Shown here: positions 17,342 to 36,012 of the stretch, piece by piece
Numbering within the stretch: position 1 is the first letter of the stretch
How the letters are laid out: each line of letters opens with the position of its first letter
Origin: Bacillota bacterium
GTDB taxonomy: Bacteria; Bacillota; Clostridia; Lachnospirales; Lachnospiraceae
Direction: 5' to 3'
DNA length: 46,667 bases
Assembly: GCA_030526045.1 (NCBI GenBank)
Contig: JAUNDN010000020.1
Span: 1 to 46,667 of the forward strand
Notes under the pieces: model-generated
What the model was told of the DNA's origin: nothing
Seen by the model: only the letters and a program-made list of their open reading frames with translations
The model's database searches: none
Made by a program: the position numbers and the translations under genes

Positions 17342-18453
17342 TATTTCTTTACTACCATTTCCCCTTCAGAAAGTCCCTCCAGGATTTCTGTCCGGTCATT
17401 CCCTTCCAATCCTGTCTTTACATACTGTACTGTTTTCATGCCATTCTCATCCAGCACATAGACATATCTGTCTTCCCCCGCTGTATGAACACAGCCGTTT
17501 GGCAGGGATAAAGCCCCGTCCTTTCTTTCAATCGGTACTTCAATGGTACCCTTTGTCCCTACGCTGAGAATGCTTTCCTCCGGTTCAGTGAGGATTTCCA
17601 GATACTGCTTCTCCGCCCAGGAATCCATCTGAAAAGGAGTCAGTTCATAATCACCTGCTGCTTCCCCATAGGTAATATTCATCTTAAGGATCGTATCACT
17701 GCCACAGATGCCCATTGCATCAGCGTCTTCTGTGACAAAATACCCCTCTGATTCATCTACAATTGTCATGATCACCTGATCCTTCCGGGTAGTTGCCCCT
17801 TGCAGGTCATCCTCGATTTTATAGACCATTCCGTTTATTTGCGCATAAACCCGGCTCTGTGCCAGCTCCTGTTGCAGCTTTTCAAGTTCGAGTCTGTCAA
17901 ACTCCAGCGCATCCTGATAATCTTCCTTTTGATACTGATAGTTTTGTTCCACTTGATCTACACTTTTTTCATAAGCCTCCAGCTGCTCTTCCGTCTCAAG
18001 CCCGGATCCGTATACATAACCGTAATAAGTCTCATCCAAGGCAAATTTCTCCTGCGTCTCCAGATAAGATAGCTGTAACTCGTTAAGTGAAATCTGATAA
18101 GAAAGATTTTCGATACGCTCCTCCAGATTGTCATCAGCTAACCTAAGCAGTACATCCCCGGTCTTAACCTGATCACCTTCCCGTACACATACCTGTTCAA
18201 TTCTTCTTCCGCCGCTTTGCAGTACAACCTCCTGCTGCGCCGCCTGCACATACTCACAACTCACACTGGCGGTCAATACCACATCCTCCCGTTCACAGGG
18301 AACAAGAGAATAAATACCTGTCTCTTCCTCCGTATCCACGATCACCAGAGGCTCCTCTGACGTCTGCCCACAGCCTACGCAGAAAAAAAGAAGAATGACT
18401 TCTGCTGCTATGAAATTTTGTATTCTTCTGTTTTTCTTCATAAACATACGCAT
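17341..18453 (-). CDS. HlyD/MacA-like adaptor lipoprotein
   Basis: This single-unit adaptor of about 370 residues has a lipoprotein signal (LLFFCVGC), a lipoyl half-motif (REGDQVKTGDVLLRL), a coiled coil (about 110-205), the second half-motif (VYAQINGMVYKI) and beta-barrel strands. It sits one base from the larger adaptor gene. The start is uncertain: four in-frame ATG codons occur in the first nine codons. I chose the third because GAGG lies six bases upstream. With the 720-residue protein it gives one exporter two different adaptors. Confidence 0.8.
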   Translation of the reverse strand: MRMFMKKNRRIQNFIAAEVILLFFCVGCGQTSEEPLVIVDTEEETGIYSLVPCEREDVVLTASVSCEYVQAAQQEVVLQSGGRRIEQVCVREGDQVKTGDVLLRLADDNLEERIENLSYQISLNELQLSYLETQEKFALDETYYGYVYGSGLETEEQLEAYEKSVDQVEQNYQYQKEDYQDALEFDRLELEKLQQELAQSRVYAQINGMVYKIEDDLQGATTRKDQVIMTIVDESEGYFVTEDADAMGICGSDTILKMNITYGEAAGDYELTPFQMDSWAEKQYLEILTEPEESILSVGTKGTIEVPIERKDGALSLPNGCVHTAGEDRYVYVLDENGMKTVQYVKTGLEGNDRTEILEGLSEGEMVVKK

Positions 18454-18488
18454 AAACATCCTCATATTACTATTATATTATACTTAAA

Positions 18489-18553: not shown

Positions 18554-20020
18554 TTACTGATTAGCTTCATCCACATAAGCCTTCCAAGTGTCTCTGATTG
18601 CTTCAATCTGCTCAGAAACTACACAGTTAGGTACAATGTTCCATACAAAATCAGGTCCGAGATTCAGGTTAGGAATCAAGCCGTGGAAAGCAATCGTACC
18701 ATGCTCAGGGTTCATCATCATGGTGATGGTCTCGTCTACAGCTCTTGAATCGAAGACACCTGCACGGGCATTGGACAGATCCATGTAGTCCTCATAGCCT
18801 GCGGGCTGATCTGTATAAAGGTTCCAAGCAAATGCAATCTTCCATGCCTTCTCTGCATCATAGCAAGCAGGGATTGCAACCGGATTGTTGCTCCATACGT
18901 TAATATAAGTATCACCCTTAGGTCCCTTAGGGAACATTACGAAACCAACTTCGTCTTCCATATCCTGCAGGAAGTTTCCGGGAGTACCAGCGTACTCGTC
19001 TTCAACCATGAATGCAGCCTGTCCGTTGACAAACTCTTCTTTATAGTAATCCCACTCAGCACCCTCAGGATCATGCTGATCATACTTGGTGAACATCTCA
19101 ACAGTCCATTCTAATGCTTCCAGAGTTTCAGCACTTTCCAGATTATAGTAATATCCATCTGCATTTTTGCCAACATAAGATCCATTGTTGGAGAAGATTG
19201 CAGCAGTTGTCATGTTTCCTTCGTTAACCGTGAGACCATACACATCAATCACACCATCGTTGTCTGTGTCACGATGAACGGTATTCATAAGTTCATCAAA
19301 TTTATCCCATGTCCAGGTTCCGTCTGCCTGCATATCATAGATAGTCTCAGGATCAATTCCGGCCTCGGTCAACAGTCTCTTATTGAAGTAAACACCGGTA
19401 CGTGCCTCAGAATAGCCGGCATACATAGCATAAATTGCATCTCCCTTAGCATACTGTTCATGCAATTTGTTTCTTGTAAACTTTGCATCCGTGAAATCCA
19501 GACAGTCTAATGTAGACAGATCATACATAAGACCGGTTGCCATTGCAGATGTGATAGCCGGATCATCACGAAGAACAAATGCATAATATTCATCACCACC
19601 GGTGGTAGCATAATCTACGAAATCAGCAGGAGTTGAACCCCAGTCAGAAATAGCAGTCTGCTTGATGGTAAAGTTGTAGGTTTCCTGAATCCACTCACGA
19701 TACTCGTCACGAGCTTCCTCATAATCATTGGTAGGTTCTGCAGGATCTCCTGACCACCAGTCACGGATAATGATCTCTACACCACCAAGATCAATGGGAT
19801 CACCATTCTCATCAGTGATAACGGTATAAGGACTTACTTCTTCTTCCTCAACCTCTGCTTCTGCCTCTGCTTCTTTTGTTGCTTCCTCAGTTTTTTCTGC
19901 TTCTGCGTTGTCTGCTTCTGCAGCAGGAGCTGTTGTTTCAGCAGGTGCTCCACAGCCTGTCATTGCAACTGCAGTTACGGAAGCAAGAGCAATGATTTTT
20001 TGAACCAAACGATTTTTCAT
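18554..20020 (-). CDS. Extracellular solute-binding protein, CUT1 sugar importer 2
   Basis: The 488-residue lipoprotein (signal with VAMTGCG, cysteine about 23) has an Ala/Glu-rich linker to about residue 65, then a family 1 solute-binding fold (about 70-488), with aromatic patches usual for oligosaccharide binding (DWWSGD, EEFVNGQAAFMVEDEYAG). It is attached to the outer face of the membrane and should deliver an oligosaccharide to the permeases encoded just upstream. The start has GGAGG ten bases before the ATG. It ends the importer gene set and is separated from the permease gene by 111 bp, which contains no strong terminator, consistent with extra expression of the binding protein. Confidence 0.9.
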   Translation of the reverse strand: MKNRLVQKIIALASVTAVAMTGCGAPAETTAPAAEADNAEAEKTEEATKEAEAEAEVEEEEVSPYTVITDENGDPIDLGGVEIIIRDWWSGDPAEPTNDYEEARDEYREWIQETYNFTIKQTAISDWGSTPADFVDYATTGGDEYYAFVLRDDPAITSAMATGLMYDLSTLDCLDFTDAKFTRNKLHEQYAKGDAIYAMYAGYSEARTGVYFNKRLLTEAGIDPETIYDMQADGTWTWDKFDELMNTVHRDTDNDGVIDVYGLTVNEGNMTTAAIFSNNGSYVGKNADGYYYNLESAETLEALEWTVEMFTKYDQHDPEGAEWDYYKEEFVNGQAAFMVEDEYAGTPGNFLQDMEDEVGFVMFPKGPKGDTYINVWSNNPVAIPACYDAEKAWKIAFAWNLYTDQPAGYEDYMDLSNARAGVFDSRAVDETITMMMNPEHGTIAFHGLIPNLNLGPDFVWNIVPNCVVSEQIEAIRDTWKAYVDEANQ

Positions 20021-20131
20021 TTTTTACCCTCCACATGTTTTGGTTTTCTAAATGCTTTATATCATAAACTGTAACAAAGAATTTTCCGGTAATCCTAAGC
20101 CACAGCTTTATGCATAATAGTAAGATACGAT

Positions 20132-21133
20132 TTACATCTTGATACCTGAGCTGCTGATACTCTCTACAAATGCTCTCTGTGCAAACAGATAAAGAATGAT
20201 CAACGGTGCAATGATCATCAGTGTACCTGTTGCAAGAATACAGTTAGAATAAGCAACAGAAACAGTTGTTAAGGTACCGGTAATTCTCTGAATGTATGCC
20301 CCCAGACTGTCAACAAGTCGTGCAAGACTGGTGCTCACCAAGGTGGTAGTTCCGAGGAACATCTTGGAATAAAAGCCATCCGTCCACTGCCATACAAATG
20401 AAAACAAAAAGCAGGATGTCAATATCGGTTTTGCTTCCGGCAGCATGATTCGCACAAATGTCTTCAGCGTTCCGCAGCCATCCACATATGCAGCCTCCTC
20501 CATATCAACCGGAATGTTGCGGAAGAACTGTCTGATCAGAAAGATATATAAACCATTTTTCAGTCCCATACACCCTGTACTCATCAGATAATACGGAAGG
20601 ACCGATCCTCTAAGGTTAATGGCTTCTCCCCTGATCAGCTTAAAAATCCCAAAAACATCAAAAAATCTGAAGTGAAGAAACAGGGAACTGGAAATGGTCT
20701 GCGGCGGAATCAGGATCACCAGAATTACGCAGGCAAACCAAAACTTCTTAAACGGAAATTCAAATCTGGCGAAACCATATCCAACCAATGTACAAACAGA
20801 AATCTGTAGTATCGCAATTGTCAGAGAAACCACAAAGGAATTGAAAAGCGCCTTGCTGTAGTTCATCAATTCTGCAGCCAGCAGATAGTTTGCTGTGGTA
20901 AAATGTTCCGGAATCGAAACAACAATAGGATTATACAGATCCTCCTCCGTCATAAAACTGACAGATATTTTGTTCAAAATCGGCTGTAAAATTAAAAAAC
21001 ACATACCAAACAGCAGGATAAATCTGCAGATGCTGACACCAATGTTCATTAACTTCTTTTTCAGAAGATATCCGCCGGAGAGCCTGTTCTTTTCCCAAAA
21101 GCTTTTCTGCTCCTTCGCCTTTGCTTTAGTCAT
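20132..21133 (-). CDS. Carbohydrate ABC transporter permease, MalG type (importer 2)
   Basis: The 333-residue inner-membrane protein has six predicted helices. The conserved cytoplasmic EAA-type loop, which docks the ATPase, reads EEAAYVDGCGTLKTFVRIMLP (about 218-238). The C-terminus is short and polar (SSSGIKM), typical of the MalG group. A GGGGGG run lies nine bases upstream of the ATG. The gene overlaps the MalF-type gene by 8 bp, so the two are co-translated. No ATPase gene is near; CUT1 importers of this kind generally use a shared MsmX-like ATPase encoded elsewhere. Confidence 0.92.
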   Translation of the reverse strand: MTKAKAKEQKSFWEKNRLSGGYLLKKKLMNIGVSICRFILLFGMCFLILQPILNKISVSFMTEEDLYNPIVVSIPEHFTTANYLLAAELMNYSKALFNSFVVSLTIAILQISVCTLVGYGFARFEFPFKKFWFACVILVILIPPQTISSSLFLHFRFFDVFGIFKLIRGEAINLRGSVLPYYLMSTGCMGLKNGLYIFLIRQFFRNIPVDMEEAAYVDGCGTLKTFVRIMLPEAKPILTSCFLFSFVWQWTDGFYSKMFLGTTTLVSTSLARLVDSLGAYIQRITGTLTTVSVAYSNCILATGTLMIIAPLIILYLFAQRAFVESISSSGIKM

Positions 21134-22034
21134 AATAGTAAACCCCCCTTGAGATGATCAATGAACTGATTCCGATAAATGCCAAAATAAGTACAAAGTA
21201 AACCCAGGACATGGCACTGGCAAGTCCGTATTTCATCTGTGAGATCATAACATCCTGAATTTTTTCAATGACCTCATTGTCTGAACGCATACAGAAATCA
21301 ATGACTGTATAGATCCAGTTTACCAGGAAGAGAGAACTGATCATCGGAAATGTAATTTTCCAAAGACTTTCCCACTTTGTACAGCCCTCAATTTCAGCCG
21401 CTTCATACATACTCGAGGAAATCGTCTGCAGTCCTGAAAGGAAAATAATAATCTGGATACCGGAGGCGATTGCCACATCATATATATTATCAATAATTTC
21501 AAAAACCTTCTCAAAGGCTCTCACACCGACACCTGCAGTACGCAGAATGTCTTCCAGTGTCGCTGTAATACTAATATTGGAGGTCGTCTGCTCAATGGTC
21601 TGCTCCAAAGCTGCCATCAGCTGGTTGTCTGTCTCCAGTCCCAGTATAACACCTGATGAGAGAATAACGGGCAGGAAAAATATGGCTCTTACCAGGGCTC
21701 TTCCTTTAAATTTTTGGTTTAAGATCAAAGCGACAAAAAAACTAAATACAATAATGGCAAGAGAATACACCATCATTCGGGCAATTTCCTCAACCAGAAG
21801 TCTGTTGTACTCGGGATCGACGGTAAACGCATAAGTATAGTTTACGATTCCTGCAAAAATCGGATTAAAGTTTGCAGCACCCAATTCCACATTGCAAAAA
21901 CTCATCCACAAGGACTGCAGAAGTGGTTTCAGCATAAATACAAGGAATCCAAAAATAAACGGTGAAATAAACAGATATCCGGATATTGCCTTGCGCTTTT
22001 GAAGCCCCGCTAATTTATTTTTCTGTTTCTTCAT
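21126..22034 (-). CDS. Carbohydrate ABC transporter permease, MalF type (importer 2)
   Basis: The protein of about 302 residues has six helices and the EAA loop YEAAEIEGCTKWESLWKITFP. The MalF/UgpA-type start FISPFIFGFLVFMLKP is visible. A GTG further upstream would add 13 residues, but AAAGG nine bases before the ATG at 22034 supports the shorter form. It is an unusual member in having a polar insertion in its first periplasmic region (EQTIEQTTSNISITATLEDI). It follows the DUF5696 gene by 38 bp in one operon and pairs with the MalG-type gene. Confidence 0.88.
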   Translation of the reverse strand: MKKQKNKLAGLQKRKAISGYLFISPFIFGFLVFMLKPLLQSLWMSFCNVELGAANFNPIFAGIVNYTYAFTVDPEYNRLLVEEIARMMVYSLAIIVFSFFVALILNQKFKGRALVRAIFFLPVILSSGVILGLETDNQLMAALEQTIEQTTSNISITATLEDILRTAGVGVRAFEKVFEIIDNIYDVAIASGIQIIIFLSGLQTISSSMYEAAEIEGCTKWESLWKITFPMISSLFLVNWIYTVIDFCMRSDNEVIEKIQDVMISQMKYGLASAMSWVYFVLILAFIGISSLIISRGVYYYD

Positions 22035-22072
22035 AATTGTTATCCTTTCAACCAATACTGTCTGCAGATTCA

Positions 22073-24673
22073 CTACCTGACTACAACATAATCTCTGGCA
22101 GGAACTGCTGTCCCGTCTTCCGTCACAGCTTCACTGTATCCGTAATTAACGTATACCTTTGTACCGTCTGCATATTCCGTACAGGAAAGTTCCGATGTAA
22201 GGTTCTTATGACCAGTCATTTCCTGATTAAAGGTATGTCCCAATTCATCATTATACCGATTATAGATCTCTACCACTCTGTCATGTGCTGATTCATAAGC
22301 AGAACCATAATATCCTGTATACAAGGTCTTCTGTAATGCAAATGCGCTCTCATACATTAATGTAAAGGAAAGACCTGCACCGTATTCTGCGGAATAAAGC
22401 AGCTCATCCTCCTCATTTCCGCAGATATTTAAGGATTCACCCGTATAATTGACATAGCCATGTAATGCCAGCTGGTAGAACGGAATACATTCATCCAGGA
22501 TTGTGTATTCGCTACCCCTCAAATCCATGTTGGTGACCATATCCGCATAAGGCATCGCGTAATCATTCCCCATGTTGATCATGATCTTCGTTCCGGCATC
22601 ATCCGCCTTCTGAAGCTGATCCTGCTGCAGATGTAATACTGCTTCACGGGAATAGGGTTTCTTCCGATAGTAATCTGCTGAAAGATCCTCTCCGTTATCT
22701 TCAAAGGAAGCACCTGCTCCGTAGGAATCAGCAGTGCTGATCAAATTATCAGCCATTTGCTGCGCCAGCTCGGTATGAAGCAAATAATACGGATCCAAGT
22801 CATCCCTTTGTGTAAAAGTAATCGCACTATATTCCAGTAATTCCGCTCTTTCCTTACTAATGAACTTTGCTGCATCCCTGTACGAGAAAAAGCCATTTAG
22901 AAGAGTACTCTCATATGCGTATTGGGTAACACCGTTTAAATACAAATCTATACCCAGATCATTGCTTGTATTTACCAGATGCTGTAAATCCTTTTTGCTT
23001 CCAAGATCGCTGATTGGTCTTGCCTTCTTTAGGAGCTTTTGCTTAACACCACCATTACACCAACCAGTCAGCTTCACCGACATATTTTTAAAACCTTCTG
23101 AAGACAGCTGTGAAATCATCTCCTCCGCTTCCTCATAGGTAGTCAGCTTTAAAGGTCTGGATACCGGTACACCCACAATCTGCTTTACCTTATCAACCGC
23201 GCCTACCACCTCAATATTAACCGGAGCTTCGGTATCCTCATTCAGAGTTAAGTAGCTTCCGTACTGATCCTTCAAGTAGGTTCCGTAATTCTTTGCCATA
23301 TCCACATAGTCCCCGGAATCAACAAATCTGTATCTTTGACGGATTGTCTCATCCGGAAGCTTGGAAATATATTCGTAAATATCACTGTTGGCAATATCGC
23401 CCACATCATATTTTTCTCTCTGACATAACCTATAGATTGCATTGGCGTAATTATAGCTGTTGTTCTTGCCACTGATATCTGCCTGTACAGCCGCATAAGC
23501 CTTCCCGCTCTCCAGTACGCAAACAAAAGAAGCATTCTCCCTTGCGATACCAAAAAGATTGTAATAGTTCATGGTACTATGTACTACAGCATCTCTTGAG
23601 ATACACATATCCCAGCCATACATACTTGCATAGTAGCTGTTCTGGGAAGTCTTGCCATTATTAAAATTAATGGTAGCTCCTCCACCTTCCGGGACAACAA
23701 GATAGCCCTTGTCATCTGTACCGCCTGCTCCAAAAAACGGAAGCGGTGTAATACTGTACATCGGATAATCAGATTTGTACTCCAGCTCGCTCATGGGAAT
23801 CTCAACTAAGAAGTCATCTCCATCCAGGCGATATACAACGGTAACATTAAATACCGGATTGTCAGATGATTTCGAGGAATTGTCATATTCCTTATCTGCC
23901 AGATAGTCCTCATAGGTATATCCTGCACCGGCAAAAATCTCTTCCATTTTCTTGCGGACATTTTCCTTAGTGGTATCTCTGAGAACGTAAATCACTTCAT
24001 CTGCCAGAATCGGATAATCCGCCAGTAGCTGTTCCTTATCATCCTTCTTTCCCAGCTTCTTGATGTTATACTTTTTGTAATACTGCTGAACCAGATTGAT
24101 TCCATCTGTATCCATTTTTTCAGTCCAGGCATCAAACTGATCCTTGGTCGTTACCGGTGGAATCACATATTCCTTCTCCACCTTACCCAGTGAATAATGA
24201 ACCTTTACGCAATCCTCATCGCTTTCAATCTCATAAATACCGTTTTTCACACTATATTCATAAGAATTATAGGTAACCTCAAGCCCGGAAGTAATAGCGT
24301 AGGACATCAAAATGGTCGAACGCAGCTTGTTCTTCTCCTCCGGCAATGCCAGCAAATCATTCTCCGCTTCCTCCGGATTGGAATACCAGACCTGCCCGCT
24401 GCTCTTATCAAGTACGGTGAACTGTGTTGTTTCAGGGTTCATCGTAAATAATAAGGAATCGTTTTCCATGACCACGTCTGAGTCTATCGGATCATAGGTG
24501 TGGATCGGAATGATTTCCTCTTCTTCCTGCTTATTCTGATAATTAATGATAACAAAAATGCCGATACCAATCAACGCGCAAAGCACAACCGGAAAAATCA
24601 TGCTTTTTAATGTACTGATCATTGCATTTCTGCGTTCTGTTTTTATTTCGTTACTTACCGGTCTTCTTCCCAT
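22073..24673 (-). CDS. Membrane-anchored DUF5696-type protein, possibly glycosidase-like
   Basis: The 866-residue protein has one transmembrane helix (about 25-44) and a large outside part. Residues 65-470 look like a beta super-sandwich (TMNPETTQFTVLDKSSGQVW, VVPEGGGATINFNNGK). Residues 490-800 look like a TIM barrel (EEMISQLSSEGFKNMSVKL, GWCNGG, LGIDLYLNGVTQ, GASFEDNGED). A small beta domain ends it (822-866). I recognise this as the DUF5696 group seen beside sugar importers in Firmicutes. The super-sandwich plus barrel order is that of several glycosidase families, and E658 or D659 would sit where catalytic acids often lie. Enzymatic activity is inference. The start has GGAG nearby, and YIP1 and permease genes flank it. 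Confidence 0.7.
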   Translation of the reverse strand: MGRRPVSNEIKTERRNAMISTLKSMIFPVVLCALIGIGIFVIINYQNKQEEEEIIPIHTYDPIDSDVVMENDSLLFTMNPETTQFTVLDKSSGQVWYSNPEEAENDLLALPEEKNKLRSTILMSYAITSGLEVTYNSYEYSVKNGIYEIESDEDCVKVHYSLGKVEKEYVIPPVTTKDQFDAWTEKMDTDGINLVQQYYKKYNIKKLGKKDDKEQLLADYPILADEVIYVLRDTTKENVRKKMEEIFAGAGYTYEDYLADKEYDNSSKSSDNPVFNVTVVYRLDGDDFLVEIPMSELEYKSDYPMYSITPLPFFGAGGTDDKGYLVVPEGGGATINFNNGKTSQNSYYASMYGWDMCISRDAVVHSTMNYYNLFGIARENASFVCVLESGKAYAAVQADISGKNNSYNYANAIYRLCQREKYDVGDIANSDIYEYISKLPDETIRQRYRFVDSGDYVDMAKNYGTYLKDQYGSYLTLNEDTEAPVNIEVVGAVDKVKQIVGVPVSRPLKLTTYEEAEEMISQLSSEGFKNMSVKLTGWCNGGVKQKLLKKARPISDLGSKKDLQHLVNTSNDLGIDLYLNGVTQYAYESTLLNGFFSYRDAAKFISKERAELLEYSAITFTQRDDLDPYYLLHTELAQQMADNLISTADSYGAGASFEDNGEDLSADYYRKKPYSREAVLHLQQDQLQKADDAGTKIMINMGNDYAMPYADMVTNMDLRGSEYTILDECIPFYQLALHGYVNYTGESLNICGNEEDELLYSAEYGAGLSFTLMYESAFALQKTLYTGYYGSAYESAHDRVVEIYNRYNDELGHTFNQEMTGHKNLTSELSCTEYADGTKVYVNYGYSEAVTEDGTAVPARDYVVVR

Positions 24674-24717
24674 TCCTTTGCTCCCAGTTCGTTATTTGTG
24701 CTTCTTACTGACCTATA

Positions 24718-25374
24718 TTACAGCCTGAACAAAAGCTCTCTTGCCAGCGAAACAAAATATGATATACCCTGTGATATCATACTGAAAAATATCATCAGAA
24801 TAAAAATCATAACTAACATTGCAAACAGTGTCGCTACTGTAAAAAGCAGATTCTTTCCTGCTGAGTATTCATGGATCTGTCCCATGGCAACCACAATCAG
24901 AACAGCTGCATAAATCAGGCTGAGTGCACTGATTACCATGTAAAACTCAGCTTCATCCACAGTAACAAAATTGCTGAATATCATCAGAGGAAACTGCACC
25001 AGCGGATAGGGTGCAAGCGCGTAACAGGTTGCCATATATACCTGTCCAAGCCTTCCTTTACCGTCAAACAACGTGGTCAGCGCCCAATTTCCGATAACCC
25101 AGAGAACAAACGGGAACAGCACGCTGGCAATATACAGAAAGATATTCAGTCCCTCCCAATATACCCTCATGAAGATAAAGCTGGTATACCGCAATTTCAA
25201 AACACGCATGAGCAGTGTTGCAATCAATATGGTATTTGCCGCTGCATAAGTTCCCCGCTTCTCATGTGTAAGATCCCAGAATCCATCCAATGGATGAGAT
25301 ATACAGTACAGGGCAAACTTCAGAGAATCTAAATATTTCTGATAAGTTTTGTTTTGTGTAATCTTTGAAATCAT
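24718..25374 (-). CDS. YIP1-family integral membrane protein
   Basis: The 218-residue protein has five or six hydrophobic helices. An N-terminal amphipathic stretch contains the family-typical HPLDGFWDLTHEKRGT (about 27-42), and a Tyr/Pro-rich motif YALAPYPLVQFPLM lies near residues 118-131. YIP1-domain proteins in bacteria are of unknown function. The gene is 8 bp after the NHL/TPR gene (AGGA six bases before ATG) and 44 bp before the DUF5696 gene. Conserved linkage of these three genes suggests a membrane complex that assists or gates sugar uptake; that is inference. Confidence 0.8.
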   Translation of the reverse strand: MISKITQNKTYQKYLDSLKFALYCISHPLDGFWDLTHEKRGTYAAANTILIATLLMRVLKLRYTSFIFMRVYWEGLNIFLYIASVLFPFVLWVIGNWALTTLFDGKGRLGQVYMATCYALAPYPLVQFPLMIFSNFVTVDEAEFYMVISALSLIYAAVLIVVAMGQIHEYSAGKNLLFTVATLFAMLVMIFILMIFFSMISQGISYFVSLARELLFRL

Positions 25375-25382
25375 ACGTTATC

Positions 25383-26888
25383 CTAATTTCTCCTTGTGAA
25401 AAATTCATCTGTGTCAATCTCATGCTTGATTGCCTTAATCCTGCCCACTGTCATTGGCACCAGGAAAAGTGCAAGAATGACGATCACAATGATCACAATA
25501 TGTTCCTCTACCCACTCTTTTCGGTATTGCTTGTAAGCCTTGGAATAATTTTCGTCATCATATTTCAATTCGAAATAGTCCATTGCTTCCCGATACCGCT
25601 CTTGTCTTAAGAGTGACCTGCCGATGCCGATATACGCTAGATCATAATTGCCGTTGATCTGCATAACCTGCTCCCAGGATTCTCCGGATCCGGTATAATC
25701 TCCCTGATCAAACTGATCAATTGCCTGATATACCAGCTTGCCGTATTCCGTAGGAATCATCAGAGTAATGGCACCATCCAAAGGATCCAGGACAAGCAGA
25801 TCATAACCGCTGTGCTCCAGTGAAACAGGCTGTCTGAAATATCCGTCCATGTTACCGGCACCTCCAAAGGCAAATACCATATTTCCCTGATCATCATATC
25901 CAAAAAGTCTGCCTCTGTTGCGGTCCAGACATACATAGATATCATTATCCAATACCGTCACATCTGCAAAATAGGAGTGCCCATCATAGCCGCCGCCGGA
26001 ACCCATATACAGATCGCCGACAATATTCCATTCCCCGTTTCTGACCAGAATATCATTACCAATCAAATTCAGCTTGCGAACTGCATCCGCTTCTCCCGTT
26101 TTCAGATCTGCATCATCAGGTGCACCTGTCACTACATAGATAAAGCCTTCCTGATCCATGAACAGATTGTCATATTCCGTCGGAACAAAGGATTCCATCA
26201 GGGCTCTCTGTGCCTGTGTTGCCAGCTTTTTCCACACATAATCTGTCCAGTCAAAATCAACCGGCGTAGCTCCGATAAATCCGGAAAATGTTCCATCGCT
26301 TTCATACTTTACAAGACCCTTGTTGATACCGGTTGCAATGCAATACACGCGGCCCGCTGTGTCAATTACCAGCTTTTTAGGCTGGAACACCAGATCCTTG
26401 TCTAAAGTATTATCCACCGGCTTTACAAACTCCATCATATAGTTGAGCCCACTGTCCAGTTTCAGGATTCTGGCATTTCCCTGATCTGCAATGAAGAACT
26501 CACCCTCTTCAGAGACAGCTATATCCGTGGGATTTGAAAAGGTGTTTGGTCCCTCTCCTCCCTGAAAAGAATCAATAATCCGAACAACCTCCATTGTCTC
26601 AGTGCTTGTTCTCTTCATTTCAACAATTCTGTTGTTTCCGCTGTCACAAATGTAGATAAGATCCTTATAGCAATATATGCTCTGCGGGTTCTTCAGCATG
26701 ACATCAAGACCCAGATCCGAGGAAGTAAAAACCCTGCATACGGAATACAGATCCGGACTGTCCTGTACATCACCCCAATAGTCATATATATAGGTATAAC
26801 TTGTTTCTTCCGCAAACGCTGTCATGGGAATCATCAGGATCAGAATGCTCATCATGACTGCGCTTATTTTTGCTATTTTCGCCTTCAT
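25383..26888 (-). CDS. Secreted NHL-repeat beta-propeller with TPR and C-terminal membrane anchor
   Basis: The 501-residue protein has a cleavable signal (LILMIPMTAFAEE). NHL-type repeats follow: LKNPQSIYCYKDLIYICDSG (about 65-85), FSNPTDIAVSEEGEFFIADQ (about 117-136), then further blades to about residue 380, including GYFRQPVSLEHSGYDLLVLD. Two TPR-like helix pairs (about 390-460: GESWEQVMQINGNYDLAYIG, SLLRQERYREAMDYFELKYD) lead to a transmembrane helix (about 467-487) and a short basic cytoplasmic tail. The propeller therefore faces outside. Such proteins bind ligands or partner proteins; none is known here. It follows the permease gene of importer 1 by 17 bp. Confidence 0.8.
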   Translation of the reverse strand: MKAKIAKISAVMMSILILMIPMTAFAEETSYTYIYDYWGDVQDSPDLYSVCRVFTSSDLGLDVMLKNPQSIYCYKDLIYICDSGNNRIVEMKRTSTETMEVVRIIDSFQGGEGPNTFSNPTDIAVSEEGEFFIADQGNARILKLDSGLNYMMEFVKPVDNTLDKDLVFQPKKLVIDTAGRVYCIATGINKGLVKYESDGTFSGFIGATPVDFDWTDYVWKKLATQAQRALMESFVPTEYDNLFMDQEGFIYVVTGAPDDADLKTGEADAVRKLNLIGNDILVRNGEWNIVGDLYMGSGGGYDGHSYFADVTVLDNDIYVCLDRNRGRLFGYDDQGNMVFAFGGAGNMDGYFRQPVSLEHSGYDLLVLDPLDGAITLMIPTEYGKLVYQAIDQFDQGDYTGSGESWEQVMQINGNYDLAYIGIGRSLLRQERYREAMDYFELKYDDENYSKAYKQYRKEWVEEHIVIIVIVILALFLVPMTVGRIKAIKHEIDTDEFFTRRN

Positions 26889-26905
26889 ACGCTTTCCTTT
26901 CCTGT

Positions 26906-27808
26906 TTAATCTTTCAAACCGGAGCTCGCCATTGTCTCCAAAATTTGACTCTCTGATAAAATGAATATAATAATCGGTACGATCATAACAACAACCAGTA
27001 CTGCCGCACCCTGACCGGTTCTTGCGATACCGCCGCTCTGGATCTGCTGTAACGCATATACCAGTGTCTTGCGTTCTTCCGAATAAATATAGGTGGATGC
27101 TTTGTTATTCCACAGAGCCTGCACGGAAAAGATGATCAATGTCATCCAGGCAGGCTTTACATTTGGCATAACGATGTTTGCAAAGACCTTCCACTCACCG
27201 GCACCGTCTATTTTAGCTGCCTCAATCAATGAGGTGGGTAATCCTTCCATAAACTGTTTCATCAGGAACAGACCCATGGGAGAAGCAAATGCCGGAATAA
27301 TGATTGCCCAGTAGGTATCTATCCAGCCCAGCTTATTCAGGATCAGATAGTTGGGAATCTGTGTTACATAACCGGTAAACATCATGGCAACCGTAACTGT
27401 CTTAAAGAAAGTTTTATTTCCCGGAAAATCATATTTTGCAAGGACAAATGCTGCCATGGAAGCTATAATCAGATGTCCGATGGTTCCTACTGCAGTGATA
27501 AACACAGTGTTAAATAAATACCGGGAAAAGGTCACCCAAGATTTCCCCATGGTAACAAACAGATCCGAAAAGTTATCCAGCGTCGGATTCTGAGGGAATA
27601 CCTTAGGCGGGAATTTAAACAGCTCATCCAGCGGCTTTAACGCGGAGCTGACTGCATAAATAATGGGAAATGCCATTACAAATGCTATAAACAATAAAAA
27701 CAAATACAGGAAGATATCTCCCACAATGGAACGATTCGGTTTTCTTCTTTTGATCAGTTTTTTCCGATATACTTTTTCAGTTTCAACTTTTTTGGCTTTT
27801 CTACTCAT
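26906..27808 (-). CDS. Carbohydrate ABC transporter permease, MalG type (importer 1)
   Basis: This 300-residue protein has six helices. The EAA loop is IEAAKIDGAGEWKVFANIVMP (about 195-215), and the C-terminus is ASSGLKD, a standard MalG-group end. It overlaps nothing but starts one base after the MalF-type gene stops. The N-terminal cytoplasmic tail is strongly basic (KKLIKRRKPNR). It should form a heterodimer with the next permease. Confidence 0.92.
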   Translation of the reverse strand: MSRKAKKVETEKVYRKKLIKRRKPNRSIVGDIFLYLFLLFIAFVMAFPIIYAVSSALKPLDELFKFPPKVFPQNPTLDNFSDLFVTMGKSWVTFSRYLFNTVFITAVGTIGHLIIASMAAFVLAKYDFPGNKTFFKTVTVAMMFTGYVTQIPNYLILNKLGWIDTYWAIIIPAFASPMGLFLMKQFMEGLPTSLIEAAKIDGAGEWKVFANIVMPNVKPAWMTLIIFSVQALWNNKASTYIYSEERKTLVYALQQIQSGGIARTGQGAAVLVVVMIVPIIIFILSESQILETMASSGLKD

Positions 27809-27809
27809 A

Positions 27810-28748
27810 TCAGGTACCTACTCTACTCAACAGGCTCTGGATTGCTTTATTACAAAGAATCATAATTAAGAATAACACAGTTGCGATTGCACATGCATAT
27901 CCCATTTCAAATCGGGAGAAACCATAGTCAAACAGGTGCGTTACAATGGTTCGTGCCGCGTAGTCAGTACTGGGATACCCGCATAGGGCCATAGTCACAT
28001 CACAGACACCAAAGGCCTGGGTAATAGACATAACCGCACCAAACATTAGCATGGGTTTCATATTCGGCAGAGTAATGAACCAGAGCTCCTGCCAACGGTT
28101 TTTGATACCATCCATATATCCCGCTTCAAACTGTGACCGGTCCACGCCCTGCAGACCTGCAACGAAGGAAAGGAAGCCTGTACCAAGGCTCATCCACAGG
28201 ATAACCAGCATACAGATTGGAAGCATGTAGTCCGGATTGATCAACCACAAAATCGGTGCGTTAATGATTCCCAGATCGATCAGGAATGCATTAACATAAC
28301 CGTAAGCATCGCCTCTGAAGAATACAGAGAAAATTACGTAACAGTTACCGGCTATTGACGGTGCATAAAATACAATAACCGCGATGGAACGAATCCATCT
28401 GGGCAACTCATTGATCAGCCATGCGAACAGAAAGGATAAAACGTATCCCAACGGACCTGTCACGATTGCTATCATGAATGTATTCTTGATACTGGTCAGG
28501 AAAATATCATCCTCCAGGATCAACGCTATGTAGTTCTGAAGTCCGATAAATCTAGGGGCTTCCAGGATATTGTAATAAGTAAAGCTGTAAAATATGGAAG
28601 CCACTACCGGGAAAATAAAAAACATGGTAAACAGGATTGCGTAGGGAGCCAGAAAGAGATAACAATTCTTGCTCCTCTTTGCCTTTTTCCAGGCAACCTG
28701 TGCATTATGCTTGCGCAGGGCAACATACTTTTTTAAATACTCTGTCAT
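27810..28748 (-). CDS. Carbohydrate ABC transporter permease, MalF type (importer 1)
   Basis: The 312-residue protein shows six helices and begins its first with NCYLFLAPYAILFTMFFIFP, typical for MalF/UgpA permeases. The EAA-type loop is FEAGYMDGIKNRWQELWFITLP. The gene lies 15 bp after the unusual binding protein gene and one base before the MalG-type gene. No ATP-binding subunit is encoded near it. Confidence 0.92.
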   Translation of the reverse strand: MTEYLKKYVALRKHNAQVAWKKAKRSKNCYLFLAPYAILFTMFFIFPVVASIFYSFTYYNILEAPRFIGLQNYIALILEDDIFLTSIKNTFMIAIVTGPLGYVLSFLFAWLINELPRWIRSIAVIVFYAPSIAGNCYVIFSVFFRGDAYGYVNAFLIDLGIINAPILWLINPDYMLPICMLVILWMSLGTGFLSFVAGLQGVDRSQFEAGYMDGIKNRWQELWFITLPNMKPMLMFGAVMSITQAFGVCDVTMALCGYPSTDYAARTIVTHLFDYGFSRFEMGYACAIATVLFLIMILCNKAIQSLLSRVGT

Positions 28749-28763
28749 TTAAGCACTTCCCTC

Positions 28764-31709
28764 TCATTCATCAACCGGCATGCCGAATTCTTTTCGTTTC
28801 TTAGTAATTTCTTCATCAATCTTGATGGAGTAGTCGATAATGGTCTCACGCGTATCGTCCTTATCATTGATTACCTTTCGGATTGCATTAGAGATATGAC
28901 GTCCGGTATAGTAACCGCCGGGAACCTCGCGAATGCCGACTGTCTGATCCCATTGTGCATTGAGCACCTCGATATCATCAGAGCTCCAGGACAAATTGGA
29001 GAACGCATCCCTGTTTGCAGTGGCGTATCGTGCTGAAGAACCAAGCAGTGCCTCGATTTCACGTCCGAACCGGATCTGGGTATCCGGCTGTGCCCACCAT
29101 TTCATGAATTCCCAGGAGGCTGCCTTCAATTCCTCATCCTCTGTGGCTATCATCATGGTTGCACTTCCTGTAATAAAGTCAGAACGATCAATATAGGTAT
29201 TACCGTTTTCATCGATATACTCTGTACCGGGAATCAGTGTGAAATCCCAAAGTCCACGGATTTCCGGTGCGGATACCATTAATGTATTGTAGGTTGAGTA
29301 TGCCGCCACACCAATAGGCATTTCACCCGAACGGAAACGACTGACAAAATCATAAACCGTCGGAATGCCATAATCGTTGAAGTAACGGATGTAATCATCA
29401 AATGCCTTGATACCGGCTTCATCATCTACCGTAGTTTTAGTGCCTGCTTCATTGTACATATCGCCACCGTATTGATACAGTAACGAGAAATACATGGATA
29501 AGTCCGGTACATTTGACATAACCGCGGTGGTCGCTGTTGCGGTAGTACTGCTTCCTGCTGCAGTAGGAAGTCCTACAGACAGGTTATTGCCCTGGATCGT
29601 GGGTAACATCTCAATCAGTTCCTGCCATGTCTGCGGAATTCCCAATCCCAGTTCTTCCAAGACATCCTTACGATAGAACATCACATTGAAGGTCTGGGTC
29701 TCAGGTATGGCATAAATATGATCATCCAGCCTATACTGTTCATAGGAGCTTTCCGAATAATGGGAAAGAACCTCTTCACAATCTTCAAATTGTGTAATAT
29801 CCACTGCCGCGTTACGCAAAGCATAGTTGACAGGCTGATCGGCGCCAACGGAAAGAACCACATTCGGGCCTCTTCCTGCCAATACGGCATTTAACAATGC
29901 ACTAGGATCCACAATTTCCACATTGACCTTGATTCCCGACTGTGGAATAAAGGTATCATCTACCATGGTCTTTAAGATAGTACCCTGATCGCGACCTGTC
30001 AGCACCCATACCTTAACAACTTCTTCGTCATCCTCATATACATCACCGACAGCATTGTAATCCACGAAGAAGGAAGCAAAGAAGGATTTAATTTCATGCC
30101 ATAGCTTGGAAAAGAAATTTGCTTTGTCCTTTTCAGGCTTCACATCCACTCCCGAAACCACCAGATAATCCACATCCAGCTTCGTCTCGCTCATCTTCAG
30201 GGATGCTGTACCCAGCGCGGTAATATTATCCTTGAAGGAAACAAACTCGGTTGTTATCTTATTGGGCTTTTCACAGAAGCGCTCCAGCTGTTGTGCCACA
30301 GTCTGTGCAGTTGCAATCTGATCAGCCTTCTGTCCGCTGTAGTCCACCATATCATCCACGATCTTATATAATCGTCTGGATTCCAGATCCATGGCCTGCA
30401 TGATTTCAGGATAGGTAGTATCAATATGATAATCTCTGTACTGGTCAGGTGTCGCGCCGGTATAGACCAATACCTTTCTGTAAATCTGATTCAAGCGATA
30501 GGTGGAATCCTCTAAATCCTCAAGAATTTCGCCCATACCGCCCAGGGTTGCTTCCATCCGGATTGTATGTACTCCCTTGGTCAGATAAAACTGATAAGGT
30601 TCTCCGTTTTCGTCCGCCAGATCCTTGCATTCCCAGTCATTCGCATAAGCATAAGAAATCTCTTCCAATCCTTCAAAAGGTATCTCCCCGTCTATATACA
30701 CAGTTCGATTGGATACACTTCCCCGGGAGTAATTCTGACGGCCTTTGATCATGATATTGTAATAACCATCCTCAGGTACCTCAAATTCCCATTCTATCCA
30801 TTGTCCTGAGCTCCGCCAGGTTTCCCCTCCAACATAATTCAGCACTGTATTGGTAACACTGTTCGGATAAGTGGTGGGTGAAGACCTGTCATACTTTGCG
30901 TAAAGAGAAGATTCTGACCGCCTTGTTGAGGTTTCTCCCTCAATACGCTGTAGGTAGTCTTTCCCGCCGGATACTGCCGGTTGCTTTGCCAGATACTCTT
31001 CATAGGTATCTCTTTTGCTGATTGGCATCAATTTTAGGCTCTTTAATACCAGCGGTTCATTTTCAGCCCCCAGAGAAATGGTGTTTTTCCCGTTCTCAAA
31101 ATAGAATTGATAAGGCTCTACAACATATCCCATATCATCCCTAAAATAGGAAGCCTGCCAATCATATACCTCAACCTGCATAGGTCTGATTTCATTTCCC
31201 TGATTATCCACCCGGACAACTCCGCCGTCTTCCCAGATACGTGAAAACGCAATACTTCTGGCATCCTCAAATGGAATCTCGCCATTGATGTAGACAGCCC
31301 GTTCTGCTGCCACACCTCTTGACTCCGGAATCAGGTATTCCATATACAAATTGTAAAAACCGGCCTCCGGAATATCTACTTCCCAGGTTACAAGCGAATT
31401 ACTCTCCGTCAAAAGAGCCTTCGTCGCTCCCTCATAATCAGTGCATACACTGGCTTCTCCTTCGTCCACCGTATATGAAAAAAGCTCAATCTCTACCGTA
31501 GACTCTGCTGCCTTCGCCTCCTGATGTTCATCCAGATAACCCGTATAGGCTCCAACCCTCTCCATGCCTGCTATGTCTGTCGTCAAATCCGTGCCCGCGT
31601 ATTTCTCCCTGAAATTCGGCACCTCACGCATAGACAACAAAACGCATACTGCTGTAATAACAGCAATAACAGCTATGAAAATGGTTACTCTTTTGGCTGT
31701 CTTGTTCAT
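28764..31709 (-). CDS. Membrane-anchored binding protein with two beta-sandwich domains (importer 1)
   Basis: The 981-residue protein has an uncleaved N-terminal helix (about 8-26, no lipobox). Two carbohydrate-binding-like beta sandwiches follow (about 72-230 and 255-395), each with the same sub-motifs: VDIPEAGFYNLYMEY/VPEDGYYNIMIKG, then RAVYINGEIPFE/RTVYIDGEIPFE, then PYQFYFENGKNTI/PYQFYLTKGVHTI. A helical section (400-550) leads to a family 1 solute-binding domain (about 565-965, with RSGEMPIGVAAYSTYNT). Normal binding proteins have about 400-550 residues. GGAGG six bases before the ATG fixes the start. It presumably captures long xylo-oligosaccharides released by the GH10 enzyme encoded just upstream. 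Confidence 0.85.
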   Translation of the reverse strand: MNKTAKRVTIFIAVIAVITAVCVLLSMREVPNFREKYAGTDLTTDIAGMERVGAYTGYLDEHQEAKAAESTVEIELFSYTVDEGEASVCTDYEGATKALLTESNSLVTWEVDIPEAGFYNLYMEYLIPESRGVAAERAVYINGEIPFEDARSIAFSRIWEDGGVVRVDNQGNEIRPMQVEVYDWQASYFRDDMGYVVEPYQFYFENGKNTISLGAENEPLVLKSLKLMPISKRDTYEEYLAKQPAVSGGKDYLQRIEGETSTRRSESSLYAKYDRSSPTTYPNSVTNTVLNYVGGETWRSSGQWIEWEFEVPEDGYYNIMIKGRQNYSRGSVSNRTVYIDGEIPFEGLEEISYAYANDWECKDLADENGEPYQFYLTKGVHTIRMEATLGGMGEILEDLEDSTYRLNQIYRKVLVYTGATPDQYRDYHIDTTYPEIMQAMDLESRRLYKIVDDMVDYSGQKADQIATAQTVAQQLERFCEKPNKITTEFVSFKDNITALGTASLKMSETKLDVDYLVVSGVDVKPEKDKANFFSKLWHEIKSFFASFFVDYNAVGDVYEDDEEVVKVWVLTGRDQGTILKTMVDDTFIPQSGIKVNVEIVDPSALLNAVLAGRGPNVVLSVGADQPVNYALRNAAVDITQFEDCEEVLSHYSESSYEQYRLDDHIYAIPETQTFNVMFYRKDVLEELGLGIPQTWQELIEMLPTIQGNNLSVGLPTAAGSSTTATATTAVMSNVPDLSMYFSLLYQYGGDMYNEAGTKTTVDDEAGIKAFDDYIRYFNDYGIPTVYDFVSRFRSGEMPIGVAAYSTYNTLMVSAPEIRGLWDFTLIPGTEYIDENGNTYIDRSDFITGSATMMIATEDEELKAASWEFMKWWAQPDTQIRFGREIEALLGSSARYATANRDAFSNLSWSSDDIEVLNAQWDQTVGIREVPGGYYTGRHISNAIRKVINDKDDTRETIIDYSIKIDEEITKKRKEFGMPVDE

Positions 31710-31731
31710 TTTGACCTCCGAATACAAATCG

Positions 31732-33144
31732 TCATTCTACAAAAACCCAGAAGCAGGGCTTGGGTTCATAATTTTCATCAAACAAAAGCGGACACTGGGG
31801 TAGTCCTGTTGTATTGCCACCACCTACATTTGAACGGTTCTGCAACCAGGAATAATGATCTGCCGTCCCCCAGAAGGTAATTCCGGTCACATTGACCCCT
31901 TCCTTTTGATTTGCGGCATCCATAGCAAAATAAAGCATTTTATAGCGCTTTCTCTGCTTCTCGTATTCTGTCTCCTTTGCCGCATCACTTCCGTCATAAT
32001 CGCTGCTTGCAGTAATGTCCAGCTCTGTAATCTGCACATTGCCTACAACCTTACCGTAGGCTTCAATCGAGCTTTGCACTTCCGAAAAAGAAGGATTGTC
32101 TATTCCGTAATGTCCTTGCATACCCATGGCACTGATTCTGGTGCCCTCACCTGGTTTCCCTTCTCTTTCCTTTACCGCCTCTAACAGCTTGATAATGCCG
32201 CTTCTCTTTACAGCATTGCATTCATTATAATCGTTATAATAAAGATCAAGGCTTTCCGGTGCATATTTATTGGCATACAGGAATGCATTGATAATATACT
32301 CTTCGCTTTCATAAATATGCCACCAGCTGGAATTGCTTCCATGTCTGTCCTCTGAGAGAGACTCTGAAGGATTTTCGTTATCTGTCCGGTATTTTCCTCC
32401 GTTGTCACTGACTGCTTCATTAACCACATCCCAGCCATAGAACAGATCACGGTATTTGCTCTCCTGCCCGGTAAAATGGGTCAGCACAGTCTTGATGTAC
32501 CACTCCAGGCGAAGATTCATGGTTTCTTTATCTACATATTCTTTTGATTTATCATAATCTTCATGAAAGAACCATTCCGGGGTCTGGGAATGCCACACCA
32601 ATACATGACCTCTCACCTTAATCATCCTGTCGGGATTTGCTTCGTTCCAGGCAAGTATCTTATCCAGCATTTTCTCTGCACGGGAATAGTCAAGAACCGG
32701 AACCTCTATTTCCCGGTCATTTACAGTATCTGTTGTCACCCCCGGGCAAGTGCTGCAGCTATAATCAAAAAGTGCATCCGGCTTCAATTCGTTGCCAAAG
32801 GTTACGGAATTAAAATGAGTGGTGATAATCTCCCATACCTTCTCATCTTCGATTTCCGACGCCGTAACCGCCGCACCGGCCATACAGCCCATTTTTTCTT
32901 CTACGCAGTCACTCAGAATAGGAATTTCCACCGTTTCCGTCTCCGTTTCTGTTTCTGTTTCAGCTTGTTCTTCTTTTTCGGGAGCAGACGTATCATCAGC
33001 CGTGTTCTGCGGAATTGCTTCCTTGGCAGATACCTCCTCCTGTACCTGGCCCGCATCGGAAGAACACCCCAAAACTGATATTCCGATATAGCAGCTCAGG
33101 ACGAGAACAAGTATTCTTTTAGCCGCCTTCATTGCAGAACTCAT
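31732..33144 (-). CDS. GH10 endo-1,4-beta-xylanase, surface lipoprotein
   Basis: The 470-residue protein has a lipoprotein signal (VLGC, cysteine 27). A low-complexity acidic linker with repeated Glu-Thr pairs (about 61-72) leads to a GH10 catalytic domain (about 85-470). Hallmarks are FNSVTFGNELKPDAL, VRGHVLVWHSQTPEWF, the acid/base E243 in WDVVNEAV, the nucleophile E374 in QITELDIT, and GITFWGTADHYSW near the C-terminus. It should cut xylan at the cell surface. It is the first gene of the long minus-strand operon and is divergent from the AraC regulator. Its weak ribosome binding site is AGGA ten bases before ATG. Confidence 0.95.
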   Translation of the reverse strand: MSSAMKAAKRILVLVLSCYIGISVLGCSSDAGQVQEEVSAKEAIPQNTADDTSAPEKEEQAETETETETETVEIPILSDCVEEKMGCMAGAAVTASEIEDEKVWEIITTHFNSVTFGNELKPDALFDYSCSTCPGVTTDTVNDREIEVPVLDYSRAEKMLDKILAWNEANPDRMIKVRGHVLVWHSQTPEWFFHEDYDKSKEYVDKETMNLRLEWYIKTVLTHFTGQESKYRDLFYGWDVVNEAVSDNGGKYRTDNENPSESLSEDRHGSNSSWWHIYESEEYIINAFLYANKYAPESLDLYYNDYNECNAVKRSGIIKLLEAVKEREGKPGEGTRISAMGMQGHYGIDNPSFSEVQSSIEAYGKVVGNVQITELDITASSDYDGSDAAKETEYEKQRKRYKMLYFAMDAANQKEGVNVTGITFWGTADHYSWLQNRSNVGGGNTTGLPQCPLLFDENYEPKPCFWVFVE

Positions 33145-33388: not shown

Positions 33389-33423
33389 TTTCTTGATAAC
33401 ATAGAAGCACAAAAGTGAGAAAT

Positions 33424-34377
33424 ATGGCAAAAAACAATTATTCTTCTGAAACAATTGAAAATAATCCTGACTTCAATTACTGGCAGGCCAACTTGGATTT
33501 TACAGGCACCAGGAAGCTGCAGGGTTCTCACGAACTGGTAGAATTTCGCGCCAAATCCATGCACCGGATCTGGATGAATGACCTTATGGTTCCTTATGAA
33601 TCCCACTGGCATTCTGCCTTGGAGATTATTATGCCCATTGAGAACTACTATGAGGTAATAGTGGGAGATACCCTCTATCATCTGGAGCCTGATGAGATTC
33701 TGATTATTCCTCCCGGTGATATCCACGAAATCCTAATGCCTCCCCCCGTCGGTATTCGGTTTGTCTATATGATGAACATAACATCAATCTCCAAGCTTAG
33801 GAGTTTTTCCGGGATACAGCCGATTTTGTCTTCACCATTGTACCTGACCGCTGAAACCTATCCCAGAATATATGATGATATCTACAATATTTTATTACAG
33901 ATTCGTTCTGAATATTTCAACGAAAACGAATTTGCCGAGCTGACCATTCAGTCACTCCTCTTAAATATGTTCGTCAAGCTGGGAGAAAACCGAAGTCAGG
34001 AAAAGGATCTGTTTTCCAAATCCCGGCCTGCGAAACAGCATGAATACATACAGCGTTTTAATGCTGCTCTGGAATACATTGACACGAATTATGCGGAAGA
34101 TATTACTCTGGAGTATCTGGCAGACCAGATCGGCTTCAGTAAGCATCATTTCTCCAGATTGTTTAAGCAATATACAGATTATAACTTCAGTGATTATCTC
34201 TGTATTCGCCGCATCAAAGCCGCAGAAGATTTATTAGGGGATACGAGCTATTCCATTACCGAGGTTGCCTTAAACTCCGGCTTTTCCAGCATTTCCACCT
34301 TTAACCGCATTTTCAAGCAGCGGAAAGGGATCACACCCAGCGAATATCGCAAGAAGCATTCTGCCCGTTCTTCATGA
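33424..34377 (+). CDS. AraC-family transcriptional regulator with cupin sensor
   Basis: The protein of about 317 residues has an N-terminal cupin-like sensor (about 35-130: HWHSALEIIMPIENYYEVIV, LEPDEILIIPPGDIHEI). At its C-terminus are two AraC helix-turn-helix motifs (about 210-310): YIDTNYAEDITLEYLADQIG and FSKHHFSRLFKQYT, then ITEVALNSGFSSISTFNRIF and KGITPSEYRKK. It is the only large gene on the plus strand, is divergent from the GH10 operon and convergent with the GH43/SGNH operon. It most likely activates both when xylo-oligosaccharides are present. A GTG nine bases upstream is an alternative start; neither has a strong ribosome binding site. Confidence 0.92.
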   Translation: MAKNNYSSETIENNPDFNYWQANLDFTGTRKLQGSHELVEFRAKSMHRIWMNDLMVPYESHWHSALEIIMPIENYYEVIVGDTLYHLEPDEILIIPPGDIHEILMPPPVGIRFVYMMNITSISKLRSFSGIQPILSSPLYLTAETYPRIYDDIYNILLQIRSEYFNENEFAELTIQSLLLNMFVKLGENRSQEKDLFSKSRPAKQHEYIQRFNAALEYIDTNYAEDITLEYLADQIGFSKHHFSRLFKQYTDYNFSDYLCIRRIKAAEDLLGDTSYSITEVALNSGFSSISTFNRIFKQRKGITPSEYRKKHSARSS

Positions 34378-34412: not shown

Positions 34413-34453
34413 AAAACCTCTGCATGAACGTTATCAATTCATGCAGAGGTTTT
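34413..34453. terminator. Bidirectional terminator between AraC gene and GH43 gene
   Basis: A perfect 16-bp stem (AAAACCTCTGCATGAA at 34413-34428, TTCATGCAGAGGTTTT at 34438-34453) with a 9-nt loop has A and T runs on both sides. It lies 35 bp after the AraC stop and two bases from the convergent GH43 stop, so it serves both genes. Confidence 0.92.
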
Positions 34454-35994: not shown

Positions 35995-36012
35995 TTTATC
36001 CCCCATATTATC

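Follow-up and report, generated by a model that had tools for sequence, protein, structure and literature searches.

A DUF5696, YIP1 and NHL gene trio conserved beside carbohydrate permeases suggests a machine for oligosaccharide import at the cytoplasmic membrane

In a 46,667-nucleotide stretch of a Lachnospiraceae contig (JAUNDN010000020.1; hereafter the window), ORF listing and Pfam analysis delineated nine consecutive minus-strand genes running from 31727 to 18554. In order of transcription, they encode an anchored oversized binding protein (BigSBP), two permeases, an NHL protein, a YIP1 protein, a DUF5696 protein, two further permeases and a lipoprotein binding protein (SBP2; Table 1). 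These parts and their order recur in relatives, DUF5696 co-occurs with YIP1 at the genome level, and NHL and YIP1 have fused repeatedly. Such data reveal genes that remain linked; they do not demonstrate a complex. A role of the operon in oligosaccharide uptake is nonetheless very likely, and because many other bacteria have the trio in the same gene setting, a single, previously undescribed machine for the uptake of polysaccharide pieces is the most likely explanation. Judging from sequence, the operon probably encodes an oligosaccharide importer that sits in the cytoplasmic membrane, is built from several components and is conserved.

An earlier, sequence-only reading of this DNA had placed three genes of one direction between two CUT1 importers, separated by small gaps. 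This was borne out: all lie on the minus strand, and the gaps between the nine genes, in transcription order, measure 15, 1, 17, 8, 44, −1, −8 and 111 bases. The BigSBP ORF starts at a TTG at 31727; position 31709, where that reading had ended, is an internal ATG of the same ORF. Between 18300 and 34500 there are 14 terminator-like sites (11.1 expected), none of which falls in a gap between the nine operon genes. The GH10 gene and BigSBP are likely to share a transcript. Between the convergent ends of the AraC and GH43 genes lies an inverted repeat (34413–34453) with perfectly matched 16-nt arms and a 9-nt loop, which may terminate both genes. The operon is followed by an export-like gene set on the minus strand (10791–18465); in the flanks of named relatives (see below), 7 of 86 hand-picked proteins contain FtsX and 2 contain HlyD_3.

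Table 1. Features of the window discussed in the text (aa, amino acids).
Feature	Position	Strand	Description
ABC ATPase	10791–11714	−	Export-like set
ABC ATPase	11680–12390	−	Export-like set
FtsX-type permease	12390–15227	−	Export-like set
Protein without Pfam match	15179–17341	−	Export-like set
Biotin_lipoyl_2 match below cut-off	17341–18465	−	Export-like set
SBP2	18554–20020	−	Lipoprotein solute-binding protein; SBP_bac_1 above Pfam cut-off
PermD	20132–21133	−	MalG-type CUT1 permease; BPD_transp_1 above cut-off
PermC	21126–22073	−	CUT1 permease; BPD_transp_1 above cut-off; directly after DUF5696
DUF5696	22073–24673	−	Pfam E 3.5e-193; predicted membrane-anchored; by profile, remote relative of GH129-like glycosidases
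YIP1	24718–25374	−	Yip1-family integral membrane protein; Pfam E 3.2e-12; separate gene in the window
NHL protein	25383–26888	−	NHL beta-propeller; Pfam E 4e-10; TPR-like region in relatives
PermB	26906–27808	−	UgpE/MalG-type CUT1 permease; BPD_transp_1 above Pfam cut-off
PermA	27810–28748	−	UgpA/MalF-type CUT1 permease; BPD_transp_1 above Pfam cut-off
BigSBP	28764–31727	−	987 aa; predicted to be membrane-anchored at its N-terminus; N-terminal half resembles CBM35 and golvesin domains; extracellular solute-binding domain in the C-terminal half (SBP_bac_8/_1 above Pfam curated cut-offs)
GH10 xylanase-like	31732–33144	−	4 bases before BigSBP
AraC-type regulator	33415–34377	+	Divergent
GH43 with GH43_C2	34456–36006	−	
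GDSL esterase/acylhydrolase	36013–37734	−	
GH43 (second)	37773–39170	−	

Gene order was read in two sets of relatives, the ORFs of which were annotated with profiles grown from the window proteins. The sampled loci comprise the DNA around 44 DUF5696 matches from 26 genomes, chosen by DUF5696 alone and not independent of one another. The named loci, one genome per species, are the best 80 drawn from at least 595 stretches and at least 399 confirmed NHL relatives; they were chosen by NHL similarity, so the presence of NHL there is by construction. They come from Lachnospiraceae, other Clostridia, Paenibacillus, Thermobacillus, three Treponema metagenome-assembled genomes (MAGs) and others. Counts include only loci with enough flanking DNA on the side concerned and leave out ORFs on the opposite strand and those of up to 200 aa that matched no profile; related genomes do not count as independent evidence. 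Among sampled loci, YIP1 was the next gene upstream of DUF5696 in 41 of 42, NHL was no more than two genes away in 39 of 39, and two permeases followed directly downstream of DUF5696 in 41 of 41. In the sole YIP1 exception (L054), the contig edge leaves only the end of YIP1; positions 1–1250 of this locus contain an extra 263-aa ORF between that end and DUF5696. The named loci agree, with YIP1 in 78 of 78 and the two permeases in 68 of 68 with room for them, and DUF5696 in 78 of 80, the other two (L093 and L101) stopping at a contig edge after YIP1. Median YIP1–DUF5696 gaps were 12 and 15 bases (ORFs taken from their furthest start). Adjacency of SBP2 is not constant among relatives. AraC-type regulators adjoin many loci, and one named locus (L153) ends in a BigSBP-like ORF of 1542 aa, compared with the usual 960–1030.

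At the genome level, a sample of 299 genomes from the phylum, among them that of the window, contained 26 with DUF5696 above its cut-off; matches of any strength extended to 33 genomes, the additional 7 holding weak partial matches only. The YIP1 subfamily profile (A8) also matched 33 of 299 genomes at E ≤ 1e-5. Its strong matches (E ≤ 1.1e-29) fell in exactly the same 26 genomes as DUF5696, as compared by eye, and those in the 7 other genomes were weak (best E 8.1e-9 to 5.9e-6). Co-occurrence of the trio is not due to chance. The neighbourhood analysis proposed in the sequence-only reading, with lack of co-occurrence elsewhere as the outcome that would speak against it, thus came out clearly in its favour (26 of 26 genomes; conserved order), and its grouping of the three genes with one another and with the importers holds.

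The tie to the upstream importer is looser. BigSBP followed by two permeases lay upstream in 17 of 29 sampled loci, and 20 of 29 had BigSBP at some point along the DNA compared. In the 12 loci without this upstream arrangement, it was directly downstream in 3 (L065, L072 and L073), and 9 lacked BigSBP throughout the DNA compared; the importers are therefore not necessarily parts of a single complex. This pattern fits an alternative in which there are two separate, ordinary CUT1 importers, with NHL, YIP1 and DUF5696 serving only PermC/PermD, as factors for their assembly or quality control, as does the divergence between the pairs (PermA/PermC and PermB/PermD are 21–22% identical). We regard this as rather unlikely, given that the same upstream arrangement was present in 66 of 70 named loci and that the N-terminal half of BigSBP (profile A12), which matched 33 of 298 genomes, was found in all 26 core genomes; in one (G103), the match was only a contig-edge fragment (E 3e-43). 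Two genomes (G104 and G154) have this half at E < 1e-150 with neither DUF5696 above cut-off nor a YIP1 match; in both, the contig ends approximately 1.95 kb downstream of it. Weaker matches in ORFs of 246–561 aa occur in five genomes of one family (f14; G007, G054, G093, G127 and G157) without DUF5696 above cut-off. The core of the module consists of NHL–YIP1, DUF5696 and PermC/PermD, with the N-terminal half of BigSBP in every core genome but not beside every core copy.

Both permease pairs have the CUT1 make-up of two MalF/MalG-type permeases plus a solute-binding protein; their relations to NCBIfam models lie below the equivalog cut-offs. The best solved relative of PermA is AlgM1 of the alginate importer (E 1.9e-17). 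The EAA loop is where the ATPase docks in such importers; its strict pattern is found in 96 of 97 PermB, 98 of 115 PermC and 106 of 109 PermD sequences but in only 3 of 98 PermA sequences, the window's PermA reading EAGYMDG in this region and carrying an additional residue ahead of the proline. Pfam detected no ATPase among the nine operon genes. Because three MalK-type (OB_MalK) ATPases are encoded elsewhere in the genome, the ATPase would come from outside the operon, any pairing with the operon permeases being putative.

Of the two binding proteins, SBP2 carries a lipobox, and its match to an arabino-oligosaccharide-binding protein is weak (E 1.3e-4). BigSBP has a single N-terminal helix (residues 14–32, by hydropathy) without a lipobox. 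Apart from weak matches to coiled-coil designs, its solved relatives (best 60 of 80) are solute-binding proteins aligned over the C-terminal part only. At E ≤ 0.01, members of the family match Golvesin_C in 19 of 37 cases and CBM_35 in 14 of 37, and the window protein's own matches to both fall below the Pfam cut-offs. The oversized binding protein of the sequence-only reading is real, with regions resembling carbohydrate-binding modules in its relatives.

The same reading had described two of the trio as anchored, one of them with TPR beside its propeller, and YIP1 as integral. Hydropathy agrees: DUF5696 has one N-terminal helix (25–43) without a lipobox, YIP1 has three clear helices at the threshold used, and the NHL protein has a signal-like N-terminal helix (8–26) and a C-terminal helix (464–482) followed by a basic tail. 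Pfam found no TPR part in the window's own NHL protein; TPR_2 appears in 11 of 38 rows of the alignment of relatives (A6), 16 of which are YIP1 only. The window's YIP1 scores 47.1 bits against the Yip1 (PF04893) cut-off of 28.6.

The strongest argument for contact comes from gene fusion. Among 121 YIP1 domains compared, a set that includes the window's unfused one, 35 are fused to NHL (29 of 41 in sampled loci and 6 of 80 in named loci). On a quick tree of 99 rows, after 22 near-copies had been dropped, the fused or split state changed 7 times, at least 5 of the changes being forced by well-supported branches; the exact number is unsure because of long branches near the root. The predicted topology, in which YIP1 would follow the last NHL helix and the basic tail, fits such fusions, and we lean towards NHL–YIP1 acting as a physical hub. 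The same predicted topology, together with the AraC-type regulators beside many loci, would also suit a sensor, in which the propeller would detect substrate or the occupancy of binding proteins on the outside and signal inward through YIP1. Because Pfam matched none of the three proteins to a signalling family, we consider a sensor improbable.

DUF5696 is, by profile comparison, a remote relative of GH129-like glycosidases (background on GH129 in PMC8106489). Against the PDB, profile A5 matched DagB (5opq, E 3.6e-14; 8rzg and 8rzk, with the same matched letters, approximately 3e-14) and the GH129 enzyme NagBb (5wzn/5wzq, E 2.8e-7). The DagB match comprises an N-terminal stretch and the beginning of the barrel; a further C-terminal piece is not significant alone. 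The NagBb match is confined to the beginning of the barrel. A barrel-only profile recovered NagBb at 8.4e-4 and did not find DagB. The Pfam GH129 model (PF11308) matched none of 18 DUF5696 members at E ≤ 1; it also matched none of 298 genomes, but controls gave no match either, so that search says nothing about absence. The DUF5696 profile also gave weak matches, two of which were checked with Pfam: an alpha-amylase in the window's genome (L079, 7842–9149) and a DUF6259 protein (L076, 8302–10290), which hint at a shared barrel ancestry.

Whether DUF5696 is an enzyme is a closer call. An active membrane glycosidase that trims incoming oligosaccharides, which is the processing role of the sequence-only reading, with the other parts serving as scaffold, would be consistent with this kinship and with the near-invariance of R676 (121 of 122 sequences), E763 (117), D727 (114) and D667 (111). 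The candidate nucleophile D659 is Asp in 86 of 122, the window included, and is replaced in 35 (2 by Glu) and gapped in 1. N703 lies 44 residues further on, at the position that by spacing would match the second catalytic residue of NagBb; it is Asn in 104, Phe in 7, Tyr in 7, Asp in 2, His in 1 and a gap in 1, and never Glu. The residues seen at N703 and the substitutions at D659 speak against an active enzyme. Catalytic residues were mapped from NagBb by spacing, not by structure, so loss of catalysis is a suggestion rather than a result. According to PMC5698469, DagB, which its authors assign to a new family rather than to GH129, is active although it retains just Asp435 of the NagBb catalytic pair. 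Because Asp435 is the one kept, the nucleophile would sit on a later strand than the xGW motif, and we dropped a candidate at that motif (T536). All PDB alignments, that of the barrel-only profile included, end before this later strand. On balance, we put the chance that DUF5696 is non-catalytic at about even, and an active trimming enzyme somewhat below that.

The steady link to carbohydrate permeases, together with hydrolase-rich flanks, is the strongest argument for function. Among the 25 of 102 families listed for 96 flanking proteins from 22 loci of two families (f46 and f61) were GH10 and GH43 (4 each), GH42, Melibiase_2 and GH130 (3 each), and GH31, GH29, GH3 and apiosidase (2 each). 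In the named loci, GH10 was found in 14 and GH43 in 9 of 86 flanking proteins, hand-picked from 138 of 34 loci (282 across all 80). The window's version is thus probably for xylan. For the module in general, xylan specificity, towards which the growth tests of the sequence-only reading were directed, was rejected because flanking enzymes elsewhere include GH42, alpha-galactosidase (Melibiase_2), GH130, GH31, GH29, GH3 and apiosidase families. In Butyrivibrio proteoclasticus, the binding protein Bpr_I0182 was seen only on xylan, according to PMC5217386; we rejected it as direct proteomic support because Agu67A is Bpr_I0177 and the nine-gene order does not fit. The main text of PMC4765114, on Paenibacillus sp. 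JDR-2, mentions neither Yip1 nor NHL.

Copy number was determined in seven genomes chosen for several DUF5696 or YIP1 matches. DUF5696 gave 11 matches in 10 genes in G062, 10 in G135, 8 in G165, 11 in G040, 22 in approximately 20 places in G082, 3 in G101 and 2 in G066, the counts for G040 and G082 including contig-end pieces. The first five of these genomes, of 2.2–3.0 Mb, thus carry DUF5696 in 8–20 places, and about ten copies suggests a main uptake route there. The window's genome has one DUF5696 above cut-off. DUF5696 genes also occur on plasmid records of Butyrivibrio fibrisolvens (NZ_CP146964.1) and Paenibacillus cellulosilyticus (NZ_CP054609.1). Contrary to the sequence-only reading, the operon is not strictly Gram-positive: three loci from Treponema MAGs (L129, L132 and L134, the last up to the contig end) carry it, and among 198 genomes of the phylum of one Treponema (G299), 7 have DUF5696 above cut-off, 5 of them, G299 included, at full length. 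Neighbours in diderm hosts were read from these three loci only, and binning error is possible in MAGs.

We therefore propose the following working model. Secreted enzymes (here GH10, GH43 and GDSL) would cut the polysaccharide, and the products would be bound by anchored BigSBP, through its CBM-like modules, and by lipoprotein SBP2. The NHL propeller, on the outer face and carried by the YIP1 membrane domain, would act as a hub for binding proteins and permease pairs. Anchored DUF5696, next to PermC/PermD, may orient or edit the chain before these permeases import it, and PermA/PermB would form a second channel fed by BigSBP, with ATP hydrolysis by a MalK/MsmX-type ATPase encoded elsewhere. 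Capture and processing may be carried out by one complex. A bolder version, which we hold to be doubtful, is a carbohydrate-uptake supercomplex of a kind not described before, with two ABC importers and two binding proteins, gathered by a propeller–YIP1 hub and by a non-catalytic glycosidase-fold subunit that would thread oligosaccharides; it would be re-deployed for many polysaccharides by duplication, as an ABC-based functional answer to SusCD.

In our judgement, long-oligosaccharide import in bacteria without SusCD is less well understood than in those with it. A fixed trio of uncharacterized proteins beside carbohydrate permeases in every locus with room, in records from Lachnospiraceae, Paenibacillus and Treponema, offers a role that can be tested for both DUF5696 and this YIP1 subfamily. 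Public annotation already names the gene as a DUF5696 domain-containing protein in two plasmid records; in open-licence PMC papers, we found no mention of DUF5696 by name and, among the papers listed for combinations with Yip1 or NHL, no description of the operon.

How does the operon compare with known systems? With GH129 (NagBb) and GH129-like (DagB) enzymes, DUF5696 shares partial PDB profile matches, but it differs in its predicted membrane anchor, its tie to permeases and the lack of a PF11308 match. The window's YIP1 belongs to the Yip1 family by its Pfam score, whereas its subfamily goes together with the DUF5696 module in the genomes sampled from the phylum and is often fused to a beta-propeller. 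Like CUT1 importers with a shared MsmX/MalK-type ATPase, such as AlgM1M2SS–AlgQ2, the operon combines an extracytoplasmic binding protein with a pair of MalF/MalG-like permeases for each importer; it differs in having two permease pairs together with NHL, YIP1 and DUF5696, a combination that, to our knowledge, is found in no known CUT1 system. The sequence-only reading had seen a possible counterpart of Bacteroidetes Sus systems. In some genomes, the many copies (8–20 places) beside varied glycoside hydrolases do resemble a Sus-like expansion, but the operon is not a Sus system. Neither the TonB-dependent SusC nor the SusD lipoprotein that define SusCD was found by Pfam among the 20 window genes scanned, and the operon has ABC permeases instead; together with the helix anchors and the lipobox, these point to a predicted cytoplasmic-membrane machine. 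In Treponema, it would work behind the outer membrane and so would not be a surface Sus analogue. Gram-positive PULs (gpPULs) are defined by a degrading enzyme, an importer and a regulator in one locus. The window locus contains all of these (GH10, GH43, AraC, solute-binding proteins and permeases), whereas its extra conserved envelope trio, present also in Treponema MAGs, sets the operon apart.
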